Shown here one piece after another: positions 1,125 to 8,009 of a stretch of DNA of 8,093 nucleotides. Origin of the DNA: Ignavibacteriaceae bacterium (lineage in GTDB: Bacteria > Bacteroidota > Ignavibacteria > Ignavibacteriales > Ignavibacteriaceae); contig JACAFA010000031.1 of NCBI GenBank assembly GCA_013388525.1, forward strand, positions 1-8,093. The letters run 5' to 3'. How positions within the stretch are numbered: the stretch's first letter is position 1; each line of letters opens with the position of its first letter. Both the position numbers and the translations under genes were made by a program. A model generated the notes under the pieces. It did no database searches. It was given only the letters and a program-made list of their open reading frames with translations, and was not told the DNA's origin.

Positions 1125-2765
1125 TTACACGTGCTTTTTGTCAATAAAATACTTTCGGAATTTCTTACCACCAGCAGTGCTAACTTCACCTATCTTGACA
1201 AGCCAGTAAAGAACAGCCCTTAATTTTCTAACCGGAATTTCCTTGCCAATTCGGGAATGGATATTCTCAATCAAACTCATAGGGTAATTTTCTAAGTCTT
1301 CGATAATAAGTTGCTTAAGTCTGTGCTCTTCTATTTGTTGAAGGTTTGTTCTTTCTAAACTCGTTCCTTTTAAAACAGCAGGATTAATGTAGTACTGAGT
1401 TCCTTTGGTTTTTCCTTTTGTAAGCACTATTTCATACTCAAGTAATCTGCCCAACCAGTACTTTATTTGTTTGTCATTATTACTCTGAATCTGTTTCGAA
1501 AATTCAGTGGCAATTATACTTTTGTATTGTGCAATAATTCCTAGGCAAATAATTTCCTTCTGATTGAGTTGATACTGGTTTTTGATTTTTTCCACAAGAG
1601 TAATAACATCAACACTTGTAATTTGCTTATAGATGGTTACTATTACTCTGTCATCCCCTTCTTTTACAGCAGGAGGTTTTTTAGCCTCACTTAAAAGAAT
1701 TTCATACATTTTGTCATAACCGCTGCCTTCTCTTTCCATTAAATTTAAATCGTAAAAGATTTTTGATAGATGCTCATTACGTTTAATCGATTGATGTAAT
1801 ATATTATTTGGTGTAACGCCCAGTGGTAATAAACCCGGGTTGTGAATTTCTAACCTGTCTGAAAACAAATTGATGAATATATCACCCCTGGTTGTGTAAG
1901 GTCTATGAACCAAAGCATTGGCAAGTAATTCTCTGATTACATTTTCATTGTAATTATAAATCATTTTACGACCAAAAATACCTTCGGAAATTTCAATTCC
2001 TTCTTGCCATTCTGGAATTTTTTTCCAAACACTTTGTATTAATTCCATAGGATTCAATGAGAAATCGTCCCAAAGTTCTTTCTTGACTTTATTACCATTC
2101 TCATCGAATTTCAGAAATTGTATTACCGGCGCATAAAGTAGTTTTGCTCTTTGTTCCCTTGTCCCAACCCAAAGCAAACCTAAATTAGTTAGATAAGTAC
2201 CGTCGAACATTAAGTAATAAGACAAGATTTCAGATGTGCTCTTGTTTTTAATAAAATCAGAAACTCTTTTTGAATTTCTTATTTCATTAACGAAATTTCC
2301 CAATTTAATTGGATCACAATCATCAATGCTTATCTTTTGTACAACTTTTGTCTCCCAATTAAATGCTGGTTTATCGTTGAATAACCTTTGAAGCTCATCA
2401 GGTAAAACCGGTTTACAATCATCAGCAATACGGATATAGTATCTTCCATCAGTCGTCGAAGCTACGCTGCTTACACTTGGGAAGATTTTTATCTCTATGT
2501 ACTCTGAGCCATTAGCTGATTTTTTAAGTTCGATATTTGTACCAACACCTATAGTTAATTCGCTAATTCTTTTTCGTATTTCTTCTGCCTTGCTTATTTC
2601 TATTTTTTGATTAGCTGGGGGTGTATCAATGTCATCTTCAACACCTATCAATATGCTTCCACCTTTTGCATTTGCGAAGCACACACAATCTTTTGCCAAC
2701 TCATTCCAATCAGGTTTTTCTAAGAAACGAATGGACTTCTTTTCATAAATTTGATTTTCATTCAC
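1125..2765 (-). CDS. Schlafen AlbA_2 / HATPase_c_4 (RecG-like) ATP-binding protein
   Basis: The 546-aa protein begins with a Schlafen AlbA_2 domain (about 8-130) containing DWNELAKDCVCFANAKGG (19-36) followed by ILIGVED. This fold is linked in the family to nucleic-acid or nucleotide binding. A helical middle region follows, then a RecG-type HATPase_c_4 domain: ENVIRELLANALVHR (274-288), HNPG (308-311), an RNEHLSKIF helix (329-337) and EREGSGYDKM (344-353). The C-terminus (about 390-546) looks like one or two winged helices. Such proteins are annotated as transcriptional regulators or ATP-dependent DNA-binding proteins, and Schlafen-like domains recur in defence loci. The start is GTG; no in-frame ATG lies before residue 186 and an in-frame TGA lies about 27 bases upstream. 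No Shine-Dalgarno is visible. An out-of-frame ATG opens a five-codon ORF whose TGA overlaps the GTG. The gene stands alone, flanked by 10-base direct repeats. The domain call is strong; the cellular role is unknown. Confidence 0.88.
   Translation of the reverse strand: MNENQIYEKKSIRFLEKPDWNELAKDCVCFANAKGGSILIGVEDDIDTPPANQKIEISKAEEIRKRISELTIGVGTNIELKKSANGSEYIEIKIFPSVSSVASTTDGRYYIRIADDCKPVLPDELQRLFNDKPAFNWETKVVQKISIDDCDPIKLGNFVNEIRNSKRVSDFIKNKSTSEILSYYLMFDGTYLTNLGLLWVGTREQRAKLLYAPVIQFLKFDENGNKVKKELWDDFSLNPMELIQSVWKKIPEWQEGIEISEGIFGRKMIYNYNENVIRELLANALVHRPYTTRGDIFINLFSDRLEIHNPGLLPLGVTPNNILHQSIKRNEHLSKIFYDLNLMEREGSGYDKMYEILLSEAKKPPAVKEGDDRVIVTIYKQITSVDVITLVEKIKNQYQLNQKEIICLGIIAQYKSIIATEFSKQIQSNNDKQIKYWLGRLLEYEIVLTKGKTKGTQYYINPAVLKGTSLERTNLQQIEEHRLKQLIIEDLENYPMSLIENIHSRIGKEIPVRKLRAVLYWLVKIGEVSTAGGKKFRKYFIDKKHV
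1138..1149. repeat. 12-base direct repeat TTGTCAATAAAA, copy 2
   Basis: This is the second exact copy of the repeat at 1051-1062. It encodes part of the C-terminal FIDKKHV of the Schlafen-like protein, so the end of that reading frame resembles the DNA just upstream of rsgA. Confidence 0.5.
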
Positions 2766-2901: not shown

Positions 2902-3549
2902 TCAACTAATCAGTTTGTTGATGTAATCCGGAAGAAGAATTCCCGACTTAAGTTTTGGATCTTCTTTCGGCTGTTCGAATTTTTTTGAAAATGGTATAAC
3001 ACCTGCCCAAACCGGTAAATCATAATCTTCTTCTTCATCCTTTGGTGGTCCGGTTCTTATTTTTGCTGAAGCTTCATCTATCTTAAGTGAAACAACTGAA
3101 GTTGCATTAAGCTCTTTTTCGTTTGGCTTTCTTGCATCATTCCATCTGCCCGGAATGATGTGATTTGTTATTGCTTCCAGCGCATTGAGTTTTTCATTTT
3201 TATTTTCAATCAATTTGCCTTTACCAAAAATCACTGCAGACCTGTAGTTCATTGAATGGTGAAAAACTGATCGTGCCAGAACAAGCCCATCTAAAATTGT
3301 AACTGATACAGCTATTTCCTCTCCGCTGGAAATTTGTTCAAGAAGCCGGCTGGCTTTTGCTCCGTGAAAAACAAGATGATCGTTTATTCTTGCGTGAATA
3401 GTTGGAATGATAAACGGGTGTCCGTCCTGGATAAAGCTGATGTGGCAATACAAAGCCTCATCAATAATTTTATTGATTGTTTCAGAATCGTAAAATCCTC
3501 TTTCCGGAATGCGATTGACTTTTATTTTTTTACCTGGTTTGTGTCTCAA
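2902..3549 (-). CDS. Pyridoxamine 5'-phosphate oxidase-family flavoprotein, NimA-like (COG3467 type)
   Basis: The 215-aa protein is a cytoplasmic FMN-binding split barrel of the NimA/Pyridox_ox_2 group. The N-terminus has RIPERGFYDSETI (13-25) leading into EALYCHISF, then QDGHPFIIPT (41-50), HGAKASRLL (62-70) and the hallmark FHHSMNYRSAVIFG (96-109). GRWNDAR and TGPPKDEEEDYDLPVWAGV complete the C-terminal family pattern. The motifs match across the full length, so the gene appears intact. Members bind FMN or a related flavin and are annotated as reductases or general-stress flavoproteins; the true substrate is usually unknown and cannot be read here. The start is TTG, chosen because AAGGTGA lies 5 bases upstream, an in-frame ATG does not occur until residue 100, and the conserved N-terminal block begins at residue 13. 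It sits alone between two accessory units, 92 bases from the DUF3800 stop. Confidence 0.92.
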   Translation of the reverse strand: MRHKPGKKIKVNRIPERGFYDSETINKIIDEALYCHISFIQDGHPFIIPTIHARINDHLVFHGAKASRLLEQISSGEEIAVSVTILDGLVLARSVFHHSMNYRSAVIFGKGKLIENKNEKLNALEAITNHIIPGRWNDARKPNEKELNATSVVSLKIDEASAKIRTGPPKDEEEDYDLPVWAGVIPFSKKFEQPKEDPKLKSGILLPDYINKLIS

Positions 3550-3641: not shown

Positions 3642-4556
3642 TCAAAAGAGTGACGGCTCTTGACAAGTAACCTGATTTTCAATTTTTAGGTTGTCAAATT
3701 GCCAACTTTCATCCTTTAACCATGCCTCACTAAGTGAAAACGAGTTCAAGAATCTACTGTTATTCATTCGAGCTTTATTTTTAATATCTTTCTCAAGCAG
3801 TTCAGAAAGTGGATGGGCAATTTCATAACGTAGAAATGGTTCTTTGATTTTAAGTGCCCGTGTTCTTATTGCTCCAACTGAAATATCCGCAAGTTGCATA
3901 AACTCCGTGATGAGATCCTTTTCGCGGTAACTATTTTTATCGATTGGGCAAATTCTTGAATCTTCCTCAAAAAGAATGTTATCTCGTATCTCCCTTCTCA
4001 GTCTATCCAATATCTTGACGCCATCATAACTTCTATTAAAATTTTTTTCAGGATGATCTACATAAATATTACCAATTTTCATCAAATCTTTGAATAAAAA
4101 ATGACACCCCCCCTTTAATCCCATTCTAAAAGTTGCCTCAACTTTTTTAGAATAACTCATATCGGAGAACATACTTTTTAAACAATCCTTTTCCCTTAGT
4201 ACAACATACTTTACGCCTATCTTATTAGCCGTTCCCTTTATCTTTCTATAAACAGGAGTATCAGTTTTATGGCCAAGATAAATGTCCGCATCTATTTTCT
4301 GTTCTTGTAATGCATAATGAAGAATAGTAATCCAAGATTTTATTAACCTAACTTTTTCTGAATTCGATTTCGTCTTTTTATTTACACTTGTGTAATAAAT
4401 TGGGTGAAAGTAATTTAAATTTGTTCTTGCTTCAAGTAATAGATTAAGAAGGTTTAGCTGGTTCATTCTTGGTATGAAAATAAAGGAGTGCCAGAACCCA
4501 CCCTCCTTACATTCATCGTAAAAAACATCATAAGAAAATGTAGATTCAACCCCCAT
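3642..4556 (-). CDS. DUF3800-family protein, putative RNase H-fold nuclease
   Basis: The 304-aa protein carries the landmarks of DUF3800 in order. The N-terminal strand has FYDECKEGG (12-20), corresponding to the family's YxDES motif. A second strand has IYVDHPEKNF (164-173), and a third element has FMQLADISVGAI (219-230). Acidic residues D14/E15, D167 and D224 are spaced as expected for an RNase H-like active site, so nuclease activity is plausible but not shown. There is no signal peptide or membrane segment. The ATG follows AAAGGA by 8 bases. The gene is the last of a four-gene unit, 54 bases after the HTH gene stop. DUF3800 genes are frequent in phages, mobile islands and defence neighbourhoods, which fits the ATPase beside it. 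It could instead be a structural or regulatory RNase H-fold protein. A run of seven C at 4107-4113 encodes Lys-Gly-Gly without breaking the frame. Confidence 0.8.
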   Translation of the reverse strand: MGVESTFSYDVFYDECKEGGFWHSFIFIPRMNQLNLLNLLLEARTNLNYFHPIYYTSVNKKTKSNSEKVRLIKSWITILHYALQEQKIDADIYLGHKTDTPVYRKIKGTANKIGVKYVVLREKDCLKSMFSDMSYSKKVEATFRMGLKGGCHFLFKDLMKIGNIYVDHPEKNFNRSYDGVKILDRLRREIRDNILFEEDSRICPIDKNSYREKDLITEFMQLADISVGAIRTRALKIKEPFLRYEIAHPLSELLEKDIKNKARMNNSRFLNSFSLSEAWLKDESWQFDNLKIENQVTCQEPSLF

Positions 4557-4610
4557 TAAATGAATCCTTTATTTTACTCACGACAGTCTTTTCAAATTCT
4601 TATTTATAAA

Positions 4611-4817
4611 TTATTTTTTCTTTCGGTTGTACGGTGATTGATTCGTGGGCTTTAGTGAAATATTTTTTTCACTCGCCTTACTACGAATTGAATCTTCAGT
4701 TCGCCCTAATTTTAAACCTATTACACGTGTTGGTGTATTCTCTTTCGCAAGATGCCGTAAATTTGAAACTTCAGATGAAGTCCATGTCTTGCCTGAATTT
4801 CTATTGTATTTTGCCAT
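4611..4817 (-). CDS. Small Myb/SANT- or GcrA-like helix-turn-helix protein
   Basis: This 68-aa basic protein matches a widespread family of short bacterial proteins. Its pattern is SGKTWTSSEV (8-17), LAKENTPTRVIGLKLGRTED (23-42), SIRSKA (43-48) and a basic tail ending NRKKK. The tryptophan-led first helix, followed by a T-x-x-VIGLKLGRT turn and a recognition-like helix, resembles the GcrA/Myb-type three-helix fold. DNA binding is therefore likely, and a role as transcription factor or accessory DNA-binding subunit is inferred. Its ATG lies one base after the ATPase stop, and its Shine-Dalgarno GAGGAG (4825-4830) lies inside the end of the ATPase gene, 7 bases from the start. This arrangement suggests translational coupling and matched production with the ATPase. 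Relatives are often found as stand-alone genes, so its membership in a functional module is not certain. Confidence 0.82.
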   Translation of the reverse strand: MAKYNRNSGKTWTSSEVSNLRHLAKENTPTRVIGLKLGRTEDSIRSKASEKNISLKPTNQSPYNRKKK

Positions 4818-4818
4818 T

Positions 4819-6762
4819 TTAATTCTCCTCTATTATTTCTTCAAGATCTTCTTCGGGTGTTTCTTCTATGAATTTGCTGCTTTCTTCTTTTATTTTTTTA
4901 GCTGCAAGTTGAACATATTCATTGTATCGTTCAAAGAAAGAACCCTTTAATTTCTCATCATGGAATAAACCCCAAGCAACAGCAATACTTTTATGTATAT
5001 GCATTTGAACTGCAATGCCAGAACCAGATTCAACTTCTTTTCCAATAGTTTTGTCTGATTGTTCTGCAGCTTTGAACATTGGGTGACCAACGTTATAAAT
5101 TATTTCTTGCTCATCGGCATTTACCCAAGCTTCCGCCAATTCGTTAGGTTCATCTACAGGCCTAATACGCCACCTTGTCCCATCTATCCAGGCATCCATT
5201 GAACGAACAACAAAACGGTCTGTCTTTTCTAATTCTCGTTGATGTTTTTGATATTCGCCACGTTTTTCGCCATTTGTTTTTTGAGTTTGATTTTCTTCGT
5301 TTTGTTCGTGTGTCTTTCTTAAACCCCTTTTACCATTGTTAGAAATTTTAGAATCAAGTACTAATTTTTCCGTTTCAATTTTTTTACGTTTATTATTTTC
5401 ATTTGCAACTTTCTTAATCTCTTCACTTCTTAGACTAGAAAGTATTTCTGCTGCTTGTCGTGTAATCTTTTGATGTCGTTTTTTAAGATTAGCTTCCTTT
5501 TGTGTTGTTGCTTCTTTTTCTAATACCTTATTAAGTTCCTCTATAACTATTTCTGAGAAAAAATATTCAAATGTCTTTTTCTCGTCGTTATCAATTAATC
5601 CTTGCCGATTTGTTGTATCCTCTAACTTTGGATTTTTTTGTGGATCAATATTTATATAGCCCATAATTTTATCAGCATTGATGTAATATCTCCAGCCTTT
5701 TGTGTTTCTTTTTGCTTTCAGTCTTAACCAATCATTATTTTTCTCGCCATATGGTTTAACAATAAACCCCGAACGATATAATTTTACACCAGTATGATCT
5801 GCTCTTCTACCGTGCTTTGAAGATGAGTGACTCTTGAGCCCCCCCTTATCAAAGTAAAGTATTCTGCCTGAAATCGGTCCGAAACTTTTAAAACTTTCCT
5901 GTATTTCATGATTACTTTCAAATTCATTATTTGAAGCAGTGATATTATCTAAACAGTCATCCAGAACGTTACCGTCTTTAATTTTCCTGCTATCTATTTT
6001 AATTACGTAATTATCATTCTCATCTACCTCGATAATTAGCTCGTGTGAAAACCCATCCTTGATAGAATTTTCAAGCTTGCCTGACAATGATACATCATCC
6101 TTTACATCAAAAATTATATTGAAGTTAGAAGATCTTTCATCGGGTGTAATCATTAGGCAAAGTTCTTCACGTACTTCTCCTATCATTTTAGATGACCAAG
6201 TTCTTCTTAGTTTTTTCATACGAATCTGAGTTCCGAACTCATAATCCTTTTCAACAAATTTAATTTCTTGTCTAGGCAGGAAGTTTATCAAAATGGGTGT
6301 GTTCTGAAATTTTGCGTTAGGTTTCTCAAACTCATCTGCATCAATAGTTGCTGCAAAAGCTATTGGCTCAACTTTAGTTTTACTTTTTACGACTACCTTT
6401 GCACCAATCTTGTCAGTTCCAAATCTACCCATACCCTTTCTTCCCAACATCGTCCTTCCATAAAATGGTGAGGTATGTTCTTTTTCCTTATGAGCAGTGC
6501 CAGGACACATCCAAAATTCTTCAAACTGACTATGAGTCATTCCATGTCCATTATCAGTAACAATTATTTCACCGTTATGCTTATTTACTTTGTCAAAAGT
6601 AATAAGCACTTCTGTTGCATCTGCATCGTAGGAATTTTTTACAATCTCGATGAGAGCAATCGTTTCAGAGTCAATCTGATTTCGACCAATGTGCTTAAAC
6701 AGTTTTCCATCGGAGTCAAAAAATATTTCTTTCGTTTGTGGTTGGCTAAGATGTGATGACAT
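4819..6762 (-). CDS. GHKL (Hsp90/MORC-like) ATPase with charged linker and unassigned C-terminal domain
   Basis: The 647-aa protein opens with an intact Bergerat-fold ATP site. The N-box is E39 through NSYDAD (43-48), the G1 box is DNGHGM (70-75) and the G2 lid is GRKGMGRFG (107-115). A transducer-like region to about 400 carries GVKLYRSGFIVKPYG (325-339), NDWLRL (343-348) and TTNRQGLIDN (383-392), typical of stand-alone bacterial Hsp90/MORC-like ATPases rather than histidine kinases. No His-phosphoacceptor or membrane segment is seen. A highly charged, partly coiled-coil linker (about 408-515) leads to a compact domain with WRIRPVDEP (531-539), IIYNVGHPMF (554-563) and a helical acidic tail. 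This design suggests ATP-driven dimer closure acting on nucleic acid or a protein partner. The ATG follows GGGAGGG by only 3 bases and lies 17 bases after the 126-aa gene. ATPase identity is firm; the biological role is inferred from its DUF3800 and HTH neighbours. Confidence 0.88.
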   Translation of the reverse strand: MSSHLSQPQTKEIFFDSDGKLFKHIGRNQIDSETIALIEIVKNSYDADATEVLITFDKVNKHNGEIIVTDNGHGMTHSQFEEFWMCPGTAHKEKEHTSPFYGRTMLGRKGMGRFGTDKIGAKVVVKSKTKVEPIAFAATIDADEFEKPNAKFQNTPILINFLPRQEIKFVEKDYEFGTQIRMKKLRRTWSSKMIGEVREELCLMITPDERSSNFNIIFDVKDDVSLSGKLENSIKDGFSHELIIEVDENDNYVIKIDSRKIKDGNVLDDCLDNITASNNEFESNHEIQESFKSFGPISGRILYFDKGGLKSHSSSKHGRRADHTGVKLYRSGFIVKPYGEKNNDWLRLKAKRNTKGWRYYINADKIMGYINIDPQKNPKLEDTTNRQGLIDNDEKKTFEYFFSEIVIEELNKVLEKEATTQKEANLKKRHQKITRQAAEILSSLRSEEIKKVANENNKRKKIETEKLVLDSKISNNGKRGLRKTHEQNEENQTQKTNGEKRGEYQKHQRELEKTDRFVVRSMDAWIDGTRWRIRPVDEPNELAEAWVNADEQEIIYNVGHPMFKAAEQSDKTIGKEVESGSGIAVQMHIHKSIAVAWGLFHDEKLKGSFFERYNEYVQLAAKKIKEESSKFIEETPEEDLEEIIEEN

Positions 6763-6765
6763 TTT

Positions 6766-6772
6766 CCCTCCC
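6766..6772 (-). promoter_or_regulatory. Very strong, close-set Shine-Dalgarno GGGAGGG before the ATPase
   Basis: The minus strand reads AGGGAGGGAAAATG, with only three bases between the purine block and the ATG at 6762. It is the most complete ribosome-binding site in the window and fixes the ATPase start. Confidence 0.75.
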
Positions 6773-6779
6773 TGTTGAA

Positions 6780-7160
6780 TTATTTTTTCTTTCTGTCTTT
6801 TTCTCGCGGAACGAGCTTATACATTTTTTCATTACCGGAACTAATATCTACAATATCATAGATTACTGACTTCGATTTATAATCTACACCTATCTCATTG
6901 AAGAAATCCTTTGTGCTCAGATAATAATAGTTTCCAGCCTTGTTTACTTTAATTGCCAATTCATTGCTTTCCTTTGAAATAGCAAGATAAACGCTATTAT
7001 CTTTTCTATTCTCCTTATTAGTGCCAATCATAAGGTAAGTATCTTGCGTTAAATTGAGTTTACCTATTGCAGCTTGTGAAAATCCTAATTTCCCACTCTG
7101 ATGTATTGTTGCTTTTACTACACCCAAAGAGGTTGTTGGTTTCCAAAAATTTATTTCCAT
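6780..7160 (-). CDS. Conserved small protein of unknown function, first gene of the ATPase/DUF3800 unit
   Basis: I do not recognise a named family. The start is ATG at 7160 (126 aa), 8 bases after TAAGGA; an upstream TTG at 7187 is in frame but overlaps the promoter -7 box. The protein is soluble, has no signal peptide or membrane helix, and ends in a basic KDRKKK tail. Its N-terminal segment, ATIHQSGKLGFSQAAIGKLN (17-36) followed by LTQDTYLMI, has the rhythm of an AbrB/MazE-like swapped hairpin, with a beta strand, a GKLGF turn, a short helix and a strand. That would imply DNA binding or antitoxin-like behaviour, but the similarity is weak. The middle is beta-rich with NKAGNYYYLSTKDFFNEI, then YDIVDI. 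It opens the operon, 17 bases before the ATPase start, so it could be a regulator, adaptor or inhibitor of the ATPase. Confidence 0.75.
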   Translation of the reverse strand: MEINFWKPTTSLGVVKATIHQSGKLGFSQAAIGKLNLTQDTYLMIGTNKENRKDNSVYLAISKESNELAIKVNKAGNYYYLSTKDFFNEIGVDYKSKSVIYDIVDISSGNEKMYKLVPREKDRKKK

Positions 7161-7168
7161 ATTTATTT

Positions 7169-7174
7169 TCCTTA
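7169..7174 (-). promoter_or_regulatory. Shine-Dalgarno TAAGGA deciding the 126-aa gene start
   Basis: TAAGGA ends 8 bases before the ATG at 7160. This supports that ATG over the in-frame TTG at 7187, whose sequence is part of the promoter. Confidence 0.7.
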
Positions 7175-7184
7175 TTTTACAGTT

Positions 7185-7216
7185 CAAATCTATAAAATTT
7201 GTTTTACAATTACAAG
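7185..7216 (-). promoter_or_regulatory. Bacteroidota-type promoter of the four-gene unit
   Basis: The minus strand has CTTG at 7216-7213, a 20-base spacer and TAGATTTG at 7192-7185, matching the Bacteroidota -33 TTG / -7 TAnnTTTG consensus in sequence and spacing. Transcription would begin near 7178-7180, leaving a leader of about 20 bases that contains the TAAGGA site. No comparable promoter is evident inside the unit, which supports co-transcription down to 3642. Confidence 0.55.
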
Positions 7217-7370: not shown

Positions 7371-7404
7371 ATAAAAAACCGCAGAAGATTTCTCCTGCGG
7401 TTTT
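7371..7404 (-). terminator. Intrinsic terminator of the vapBC-type unit
   Basis: AAAACCGCAG (7375-7384) pairs perfectly with CTGCGGTTTT (7395-7404) around a 10-base loop. On the minus strand the stem is followed by TTTTTTATTTTT. It lies about 37 bases after the toxin stop. On the plus strand only TTTTATCGTTTT follows, and no gene points toward it from that side. It separates the toxin-antitoxin transcript from the four-gene unit. Confidence 0.85.
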
Positions 7405-7441: not shown

Positions 7442-7813
7442 TTAACTCAGATCCGCTTCAATTAGGGTAACTTCTTTAATTTTTTTAAAGTTCCTATCAA
7501 AAGTTAAGAACGATGCTTTCAGAAATAACGCAGTAGCACAAATAATGGCATCAGGAAGCTTAATTTTATACTTTCTTTTCAAATGAATTGTCTCTCTTTT
7601 AATATCTGCATTTAAGCCTATTACATCAACAGAGTCGAAGAAGATTTTTATTTTTTCTTCTTCTGACTTACTGAGGTTGGGATATGAAAGGAGCTCTAAT
7701 TCGGTAATGAATGATATAAAATACTCGCCTTTTGGCAAGGACATTGGATCGAGGCTGCCGCCAAGTAAATACAATACAGCATTTGTATCCAAAACTATAT
7801 TAGTTCCACTCAC
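7442..7813 (-). CDS. vapC: PIN-domain ribonuclease toxin, VapC-type
   Basis: The 123-aa PIN-domain protein is a probable Mg-dependent endoribonuclease toxin. The acidic residues of the active site are in place: D9 in IVLDTNAVLYLL, E38/E40 in ITELELLSYP, D88 in KLPDAIICATAL and D106 in LTFDRNF. Length and motif order are those of a full VapC. VapC toxins cleave specific RNAs, often tRNAs, but the target cannot be read here. The start is GTG at 7813, which overlaps the 3' end of the antitoxin gene by 14 bases, so translation is probably coupled. No good Shine-Dalgarno is visible, as expected for coupling. The gene is followed by a strong terminator. The family call is firm. Confidence 0.9.
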   Translation of the reverse strand: MSGTNIVLDTNAVLYLLGGSLDPMSLPKGEYFISFITELELLSYPNLSKSEEEKIKIFFDSVDVIGLNADIKRETIHLKRKYKIKLPDAIICATALFLKASFLTFDRNFKKIKEVTLIEADLS

Positions 7814-8009
7814 TTCTTATCTTTTTTTGATACTTGAGGGGATCTGTAATTAACTGAATTGAACCAGCGTATTTTTTTAGTTTTTCTCTTGTAAGTTTTT
7901 TAGAAGCGGATTTTTTACTCTTTAGTTTTTTTGATAAGAAATCAATTGGCACAATTGCTTTAACTCTCTCACCTCTCTCGTTCACTATGTATTCGATGTT
8001 TTGAGACAT
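7800..8009 (-). CDS. Antitoxin of the VapC-type toxin (Phd/VapB-like)
   Basis: This 69-aa protein is the predicted cognate antitoxin. The N-terminus, YIVNERGERVKAIVPIDFLS (7-26), resembles the beta-rich start of Phd/YefM-like and similar antitoxins, in which a dimer binds the promoter. A lysine-rich stretch (about 27-46) follows. The C-terminal part, with YAGSIQLITDPLKYQKKIRS and a final EWN, is like the segments that wrap PIN toxins and fill their active site. The ATG lies 7 bases after AAAAGG. Position directly ahead of, and overlapping, the PIN gene is the main evidence; the sequence alone would give only a moderate call. The complex probably represses its own promoter in the short AT-rich DNA upstream. 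Confidence 0.8.
   Translation of the reverse strand: MSQNIEYIVNERGERVKAIVPIDFLSKKLKSKKSASKKLTREKLKKYAGSIQLITDPLKYQKKIRSEWN

Follow-up and report, generated by a model that had tools for sequence, protein, structure and literature searches.

CapK and CapS have been described as a controller of the pathways with which they are associated (EMBO J 2026, PMC13373217). In the accessible part of that report, 443 capK genes are each followed by capS, and in 348 of the 443 cases a known or predicted immune operon comes next, with CBASS accounting for 75 and type IV Thoeris for 12; yegP-like genes are present in 57 of the capK loci, and 88 lie behind restriction systems. A role in restriction systems has been predicted for MORC-type ATPases (Iyer et al. 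2008, PMC2292703), and DUF3800 proteins are described as adopting the RNase H fold, with a catalytic rearrangement (PMC10910872), again as far as the accessible text of these papers goes. What keeps abortive immune systems off before infection is an open question.

Here, we have analysed a stretch of DNA of 8,093 nucleotides (the window), which carries a unit of four genes for a small basic protein, a GHKL ATPase, an HTH-like protein and a remote DUF3800-like protein. Our analysis suggests that the first two of these make up a portable module for control or sensing in bacterial immunity.

Results

Layout of the unit

The ORF list holds four minus-strand frames (6780-7187, 4819-6762, 4611-4817 and 3642-4556) separated, in gene order, by 17, 1 and 54 bases, which agrees with the genes and gaps given in a preliminary description of this DNA. 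Most aligned relatives of the small protein begin at ATG 7160, and we therefore take this as the start of the first gene and the listed TTG at 7187 as too long (Table 1). The same description had placed a promoter in front of the unit and a terminator between it and vapBC; the terminator was recovered, and the promoter found is of the Bacteroidota type. The promoter consensus of Bacteroidota reads TTG/TTTG, about 20 bases, TAnnTTTG, and it was against this consensus that the element before the small gene was called; the pattern occurs four times in the window, both strands taken together, compared with 0.8 in mononucleotide shuffles, and the promoter scan of the window gave no sigma-70 match at this place. 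A second locus carrying the pair (L001, described below) keeps the element at an equal distance, along with much of the upstream DNA. Terminator-like sites number seven in the window, compared with 3.1 in shuffles.

Table 1. Features of the four-gene unit and its surroundings in the window
Feature	Position	Strand	Basis
Bacteroidota-type promoter, TTG-N20-TAGATTTG	7185..7215	-	pattern scan; starts 55 bases before first ATG
Small basic protein, 126 aa, pI 9.5, first gene	6780..7160	-	ORF and relatives
GHKL ATPase, MutL/MORC/Hsp90 kind, 647 aa	4819..6762	-	Pfam, relatives, solved structures, alignment
HTH-like protein, 68 aa, 1 base after ATPase	4611..4817	-	PHROG transcription-regulator match
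Remote DUF3800-like protein, 304 aa, likely payload nuclease	3642..4556	-	profile comparison and structure model
Intrinsic terminator, boundary of vapC and unit	7375..7404	-	13-pair stem, 6 G-C
VapC-like PIN toxin gene	7442-8009		
Pyridoxamine-oxidase-like flavoprotein	2902-3549	-	
AlbA_2 / HATPase_c_4 protein	1125-2765		

The window holds several other genes. A short gene overlapping the VapC-like gene from upstream encodes a presumed VapB of 69 aa, with no Pfam family at cut-off. Some 90 bases separate the flavoprotein gene from the DUF3800-like gene, which precedes it on the same strand, and the flavoprotein falls far under the cut-off of the Nim nitroimidazole-reductase models. The AlbA_2 / HATPase_c_4 gene is a second ATPase-like gene, whose product has a Schlafen-like domain and a RecG-like C-terminus and is matched in part by two PADLOC Argonaute-system models (E 1.6e-8).

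The four proteins

For the small protein we found 78 relatives, and the members sampled (n=36) have a mean pI of 9.4. Pfam gave no family at cut-off, with no match to STAS or wHTH families or to AbrB/MazE (PF04014), and hhalign against the PF04014 profile gave a weak 3.7% on the expected core compared with 0.1% for an unrelated control. The structure model (pLDDT 89) consists of two successive strand-strand-helix-strand-strand stretches. PADLOC returned a weak partial match to Csx19 (E 0.027). An internal duplication, hinted at by the predicted order of strands and helices, was not supported when the two halves were compared (0.1%).

Pfam assigns the second protein to HATPase_c_3/HATPase_c only, and its solved relatives are MutL, PMS1/PMS2, MORC2/3 and Hsp90. 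Among the best 120 of the 951 homologues found, 32 besides the window show 55-94% identity, at least four of them being partial, and the rest show 26-38%, the distant relatives carrying annotations such as sensor histidine kinase or ATP-binding protein. In an alignment of 31 rows (the window, 28 close and two distant relatives), E39, N43, D70, G72, G74, G107, G110 and G112 are invariant throughout; together with the HATPase_c_3 match, this upholds the GHKL assignment first proposed for the protein. R386 is likewise invariant in 31 of 31 rows, with no match to the S5 profile, and the C-terminal region contains invariant H560 and H601 as well as H588 and H590 in 29 of the 31 rows. The protein missed the cut-off of the BbrUII/HgiDII model (NF050001), scoring 85 bits against 550 over N-terminal residues 23-201 only, and its PADLOC match to REase_II is partial and lies at the N-terminus.

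Pfam gave the HTH protein no match at E 0.1; its matches are to PHROG transcription regulators. It was matched in 5 of 72,556 plasmid records, and in the two of these five that were opened it stands beside phage-tail genes in one and beside unrelated genes in the other.

The assignment of the last protein to DUF3800 in the preliminary description stands as a remote likeness and not as a Pfam match. With 20 relatives found, none of the 21 family members matched PF12686 even at E 1; comparison by hhalign with DUF3800 proteins of Bacteroidota genomes, however, gave 79.7% over 58 columns, at the N-terminal D-E motif, and all 21 aligned rows keep D10, D14, E15, E140, D167 and D224 unchanged. In the model (pLDDT 86.7), strands and helices follow one another in an RNase H-like order. 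We infer that this protein is likely the payload nuclease of the unit.

Searches of mobile elements returned little. Neither tblastn of the DUF3800-like protein against plasmids and phages nor tblastn of the small protein against plasmids gave matches, a viral-contig scan for the small protein was also empty, and no near matches of the window were found among phage and plasmid records. On viral contigs the DUF3800-like profile matched one locus, L117, which is without the other three genes.

Linkage of the genes

Linkage was measured through protein clusters whose longest contigs agree in size to the base, an agreement that stands for a common contig and not for adjacency. On this measure, 14 of the 32 other close ATPase clusters, and neither of the two distant ones, match a small-protein cluster; with the window included, 15 of the 35 ATPase clusters examined match one of 79 small-protein clusters, which is a lower bound since one contig is shown per cluster. 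The same comparison gave no match to the ATPase or the small protein for any of 20 DUF3800-like clusters. The small protein and the ATPase belong together. One copy of the pair (clusters P0014 and P0166, on 3412-base contigs) is filed under a Promethearchaeota MAG, possibly through a binning error.

Searches with the proteins of the four-gene set found no second copy of it. When a collection of 84,980 species was searched for the ATPase, one close relative was present among the best 80 kept of at least 519 relatives, and this was L001, from a Chitinophagales MAG. There, the small-protein gene is followed after 17 bases by the ATPase gene (90% identity of the proteins) and after a further 36 bases by ThsA, ThsB and ThsB, which score 672, 276 and 227 bits with PADLOC and carry the Pfam domains STALD, SIR2_2 and ThsB_TIR. 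A Thoeris operon stands here in place of the HTH and DUF3800-like genes, so that one head occurs with two different payloads, an exchange seen in the two loci with readable DNA (n=2, the window and L001).

The two head genes can also be uncoupled, since a GHKL gene adjoins the small gene in only 2 of the 25 small-protein loci considered below, one of the two coming from another GHKL family. At L129, a GHKL-like protein that is different by motif is encoded directly behind the small gene (8125-9999), with a partial PADLOC M33A match and no Pfam match. A tie of the small protein to the wider ATPase family of about 30% identity was rejected, being present in only 1 of 117 scanned loci, namely L001 itself. 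Distant ATPase relatives were seen by eye to recur beside a cytosine methylase and a receiver-like protein (L003, L006, L009, L015, L016, L022, L024 and others).

Surroundings of the small-protein family

The small-protein profile matched sporadically across overlapping samples of genomes: samples of an order gave 9 of 298 for G001 (one doubtful), 4 of 236 for G666 and 7 of 241 for G783; samples of a family gave 1 of 5 for G255 (a repeat) and 0 of 79 for G004; and the others gave 2 of 294 for the class of G002, 7 of 395 for the phylum of G001, 4 of 148 among relatives of G001 (none of them new, one doubtful) and 1 of 8 in one further set. That all matches fall in one phylum, Bacteroidota, follows from the search having been confined to it. 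Surroundings were read at 25 distinct loci besides the window, with L128, an E 7e-4 match inside a 557-aa frame, left out of all locus counts.

At 12 of these 25 loci, a known or candidate immune gene is a near same-strand neighbour, the types being CBASS with STING, type II CBASS, Thoeris, restriction enzymes and PADLOC candidates. CBASS genes take the form of a cyclase with TIR-STING at L148, a CD-NTase with TIR-STING at L244, a CD-NTase as second gene at L237, a weak CD-NTase (E 1.1e-5) with Cap2 and a peptidase at L242, read as type II CBASS, and a CBASS-type patatin near the contig end at L149. Besides the Thoeris genes of L001, PADLOC candidates were found at L129 (M33, partial, 81 bits, then Vsr, a cytosine methylase and an NgoFVII-like enzyme), L131 (M36A-like, partial, 60 bits) and, as RhuM (candidate S05), at both L134 (a fragment) and L136. 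At L132 the small gene is preceded by an MmeI-like enzyme and followed by YegP-like and TIR genes, and at L147 it is preceded by a type III methylase and a GmrSD-like gene and followed by a YegP-like gene; both loci have a restriction system on one side of the small gene and a YegP-like (DUF1508) gene on the other. The other 13 loci (L130, L133, L135, L137, L146, L150, L151, L236, L238-L241 and L243) have no clear immune neighbour, with weak hints among them in ParE (L137), HNH (L146), AlbA_2 (L151) and a methylase-like gene about 2 kb off (L238). At three of the nine later loci, six proteins in total were compared with solved structures, and the remaining six were assessed by eye. Of the four parts, it is the small protein, given no role in the preliminary description, that has the widest ties to immune operons.

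The MmeI, small-protein, YegP and TIR stretch of L132 lies between two tRNA genes (2346-2419 and 15353-15426), with an integrase-like gene, recognised by eye, near the second of them, and resembles a mobile island.

Enrichment was assessed on the first 16 loci, taking at each the two closest complete genes that encode at least 100 aa (32 genes, of which 21 were scanned with PADLOC and the 11 unscanned were counted as misses). The control consisted of 77 genes in 20 stretches at round coordinates from eleven of the same genomes, in which 11 models matched, amounting to 12 genes at most and to 8 if models of the same name hit one gene. At E 1e-10, 9 of 32 genes matched compared with 8 to 12 of 77 in the control (Fisher p 0.02 to 0.11). 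At E 1e-40, the figures were 7 of 32 and at most 2 of 77 (p 0.0025), with this limit picked after the data had been seen and a control match lying at 1.1e-39 (p 0.0065 against 3 of 77). Counted by locus, p was 0.026 at 1e-40 and not significant at 1e-10 (0.26 to 0.71). Strong full-length PADLOC matches are enriched beside the small gene and loose ones not clearly so, the result depending on the cut-off.

Promoter elements were sought at 14 of the 25 loci, in the 250 bases before the small gene and in the gap behind it. Seven of the 14 have an element within 60 bases of the small-gene start, 33-55 bases before it, two of them with TTT instead of TTG, for a mononucleotide shuffle expectation of 0.06 (never more than 1 in 500); at L242 the element lies 124 bases before the gene. 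With an element just before its start in this half of the loci, the small gene is often the first gene of its transcript. No promoter was found in the 12 gaps behind the small gene that were long enough, an outcome that chance alone gives in 72% of shuffles. The CBASS loci L148, L237, L242 and L244 have gaps of 150-478 bases behind the small gene without a recognised promoter. Rfam on eight sources gave tRNAs only and, in these four loci, a single tRNA, in L237. A shared operator in the promoter and the following gap was rejected, as 1 of 12 loci beat all 30 mononucleotide shuffles, and did so through a low-complexity stretch.

Discussion

We read the small protein and the ATPase as a head module that would control, or sense for, interchangeable immune payloads, and we give this reading, whose regulatory part goes beyond what the genes display, a probability of about 0.45. 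The gene order, the ATPase motifs, the linkage of the pair, the two payloads and the promoter before the small gene are seen in the data. The pair would be a two-gene head behind one promoter, to which immune payloads are attached, in the window the HTH protein and what may be a DUF3800-like nuclease of RNase H fold, and in L001 the Thoeris operon. The basic small protein may bind DNA at the operon's own promoter and could, as a repressor, hold a toxic payload low. The ATPase would act as a dimerising clamp of the MutL/MORC kind that senses phage or damaged DNA and, on binding ATP, might act on the small protein through a predicted contact, whereupon the payload would be made or released.

Given that MORC-type ATPases have been predicted to act in restriction systems, in the accessible part of PMC2292703, the main rival is a self-contained pair. 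Here, the two proteins would be a complete defence unit with a paraMORC-like ATPase, whose C-terminal histidine-containing region would cut or remodel DNA with the small protein as its DNA-binding partner, and the later genes would be mere co-transcribed neighbours in an island. The conserved histidines of that region are consistent with this, and at many of 25 loci of ATPase relatives of about 30% identity we noted by eye cytosine methylases, Vsr-like or receiver-like genes, which are neighbours of the kind described for MORC/paraMORC ATPases in the accessible text of PMC2292703. However, restriction genes are absent among the scanned genes of the window and L001, and the small protein adjoins other immune genes without this ATPase. 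The HTH gene starts 1 base after the ATPase gene, which suggests that the two are coupled and counts against a unit that ends with the ATPase. We consider a self-contained pair unlikely.

It had been proposed in the preliminary description that all four proteins form one anti-phage or anti-plasmid machine, with the ATPase as sensor, the HTH protein as DNA-binding subunit and the DUF3800 nuclease as effector. The tight spacing and single promoter favour such a machine, and PADLOC 2.0 contains no such system; none of the four proteins has a full-length match to its system proteins, and the set is still, as that description had it, not a named system. The immune flavour of the proposal is borne out, but a single fixed four-part system is not. 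No second copy of the set was found, the HTH protein occurs without the others, L001 has Thoeris instead, and none of the 20 DUF3800-like clusters is linked to the head genes, the profile of this protein matching 1 of 235 loci, which had been gathered with other queries (L117). The genes of the small protein and the ATPase show the expected co-occurrence, and the DUF3800-like and HTH genes do not. A four-part machine seems distinctly improbable to us. Even less likely is an antitoxin-like small protein that binds and silences the adjacent effector instead of regulating a promoter, as a short basic protein encoded before effectors might (L149 has a patatin gene that overlaps it at the ends, L136 a RhuM gene about 11 bases off and L137 a ParE-like gene in the vicinity), for gaps reach 478 bases in other loci and the neighbours come from many unrelated families, hardly all bound by one antitoxin.

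Returning to the head module with interchangeable payloads, we tentatively propose, with the odds leaning against it, that the small proteins are a new family of immune-operon controllers. The first gene, ahead of CBASS (including STING), Thoeris, restriction and candidate systems, would encode a small basic repressor, and in one branch a MORC-like ATPase would serve as infection sensor. This would be an independent invention of the principle of CapW and of CapK-CapS, with a MutL/MORC clamp replacing the kinase, seen in Bacteroidota, the phylum searched. In the open-licence papers covered, we recognised no description of the small-protein family. If one head gene is common to CBASS, Thoeris and restriction operons, it would offer a handle on their regulation in Bacteroidota and a marker for unknown payloads such as the DUF3800-like protein, and it would point to a sensor or switch role for prokaryotic MORC-type ATPases.

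The likeness of the last protein to DUF3800 (PF12686) lies in the acidic motif near the N-terminus, the predicted RNase H-like order of elements and the remote profile match, whereas all 21 members fall below Pfam detection. With the WYL proteins BrxR/CapW, with CapH/CapP and with RptR (PMC13373217, PMC12255303, PMC9122601, PMC9122589), the small protein shares a place beside defence operons that these regulators also occupy; it differs from them, as far as the accessible descriptions set them apart, in having no Pfam regulator family at cut-off. MORC and paraMORC ATPases, as the accessible text of PMC2292703 presents them, have in common with the present ATPase a C-terminal extension and an N-terminal GHKL domain of the MutL/MORC type whose motifs are intact, and its distant relatives are often in restriction loci; the close branch differs in being tied to the small protein, with no restriction genes among the scanned genes of either readable locus. 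Like CapK and CapS, the pair is a head of two genes, one of them for a GHKL protein, that precedes immune operons of different kinds (here n=2 pair loci), and two loci of the small-protein family (L132 and L147) resemble the capK/capS layouts in having YegP-like neighbours and a restriction system in front. In the accessible part of PMC13373217, CapK is an HTH-STAS-GHKL kinase resembling SpoIIAB, activated by ssDNA and phosphorylating its partner, and CapS is a STAS-wHTH repressor, whereas the present GHKL protein belongs to the MutL/MORC class and has a long C-terminal part, and the two genes come in the opposite order. With neither STAS nor wHTH and with a different GHKL class, the pair is not a member of CapK/CapS as described there, but by analogy of arrangement CapK/CapS appears to be its closest functional parallel, occupying the same niche.
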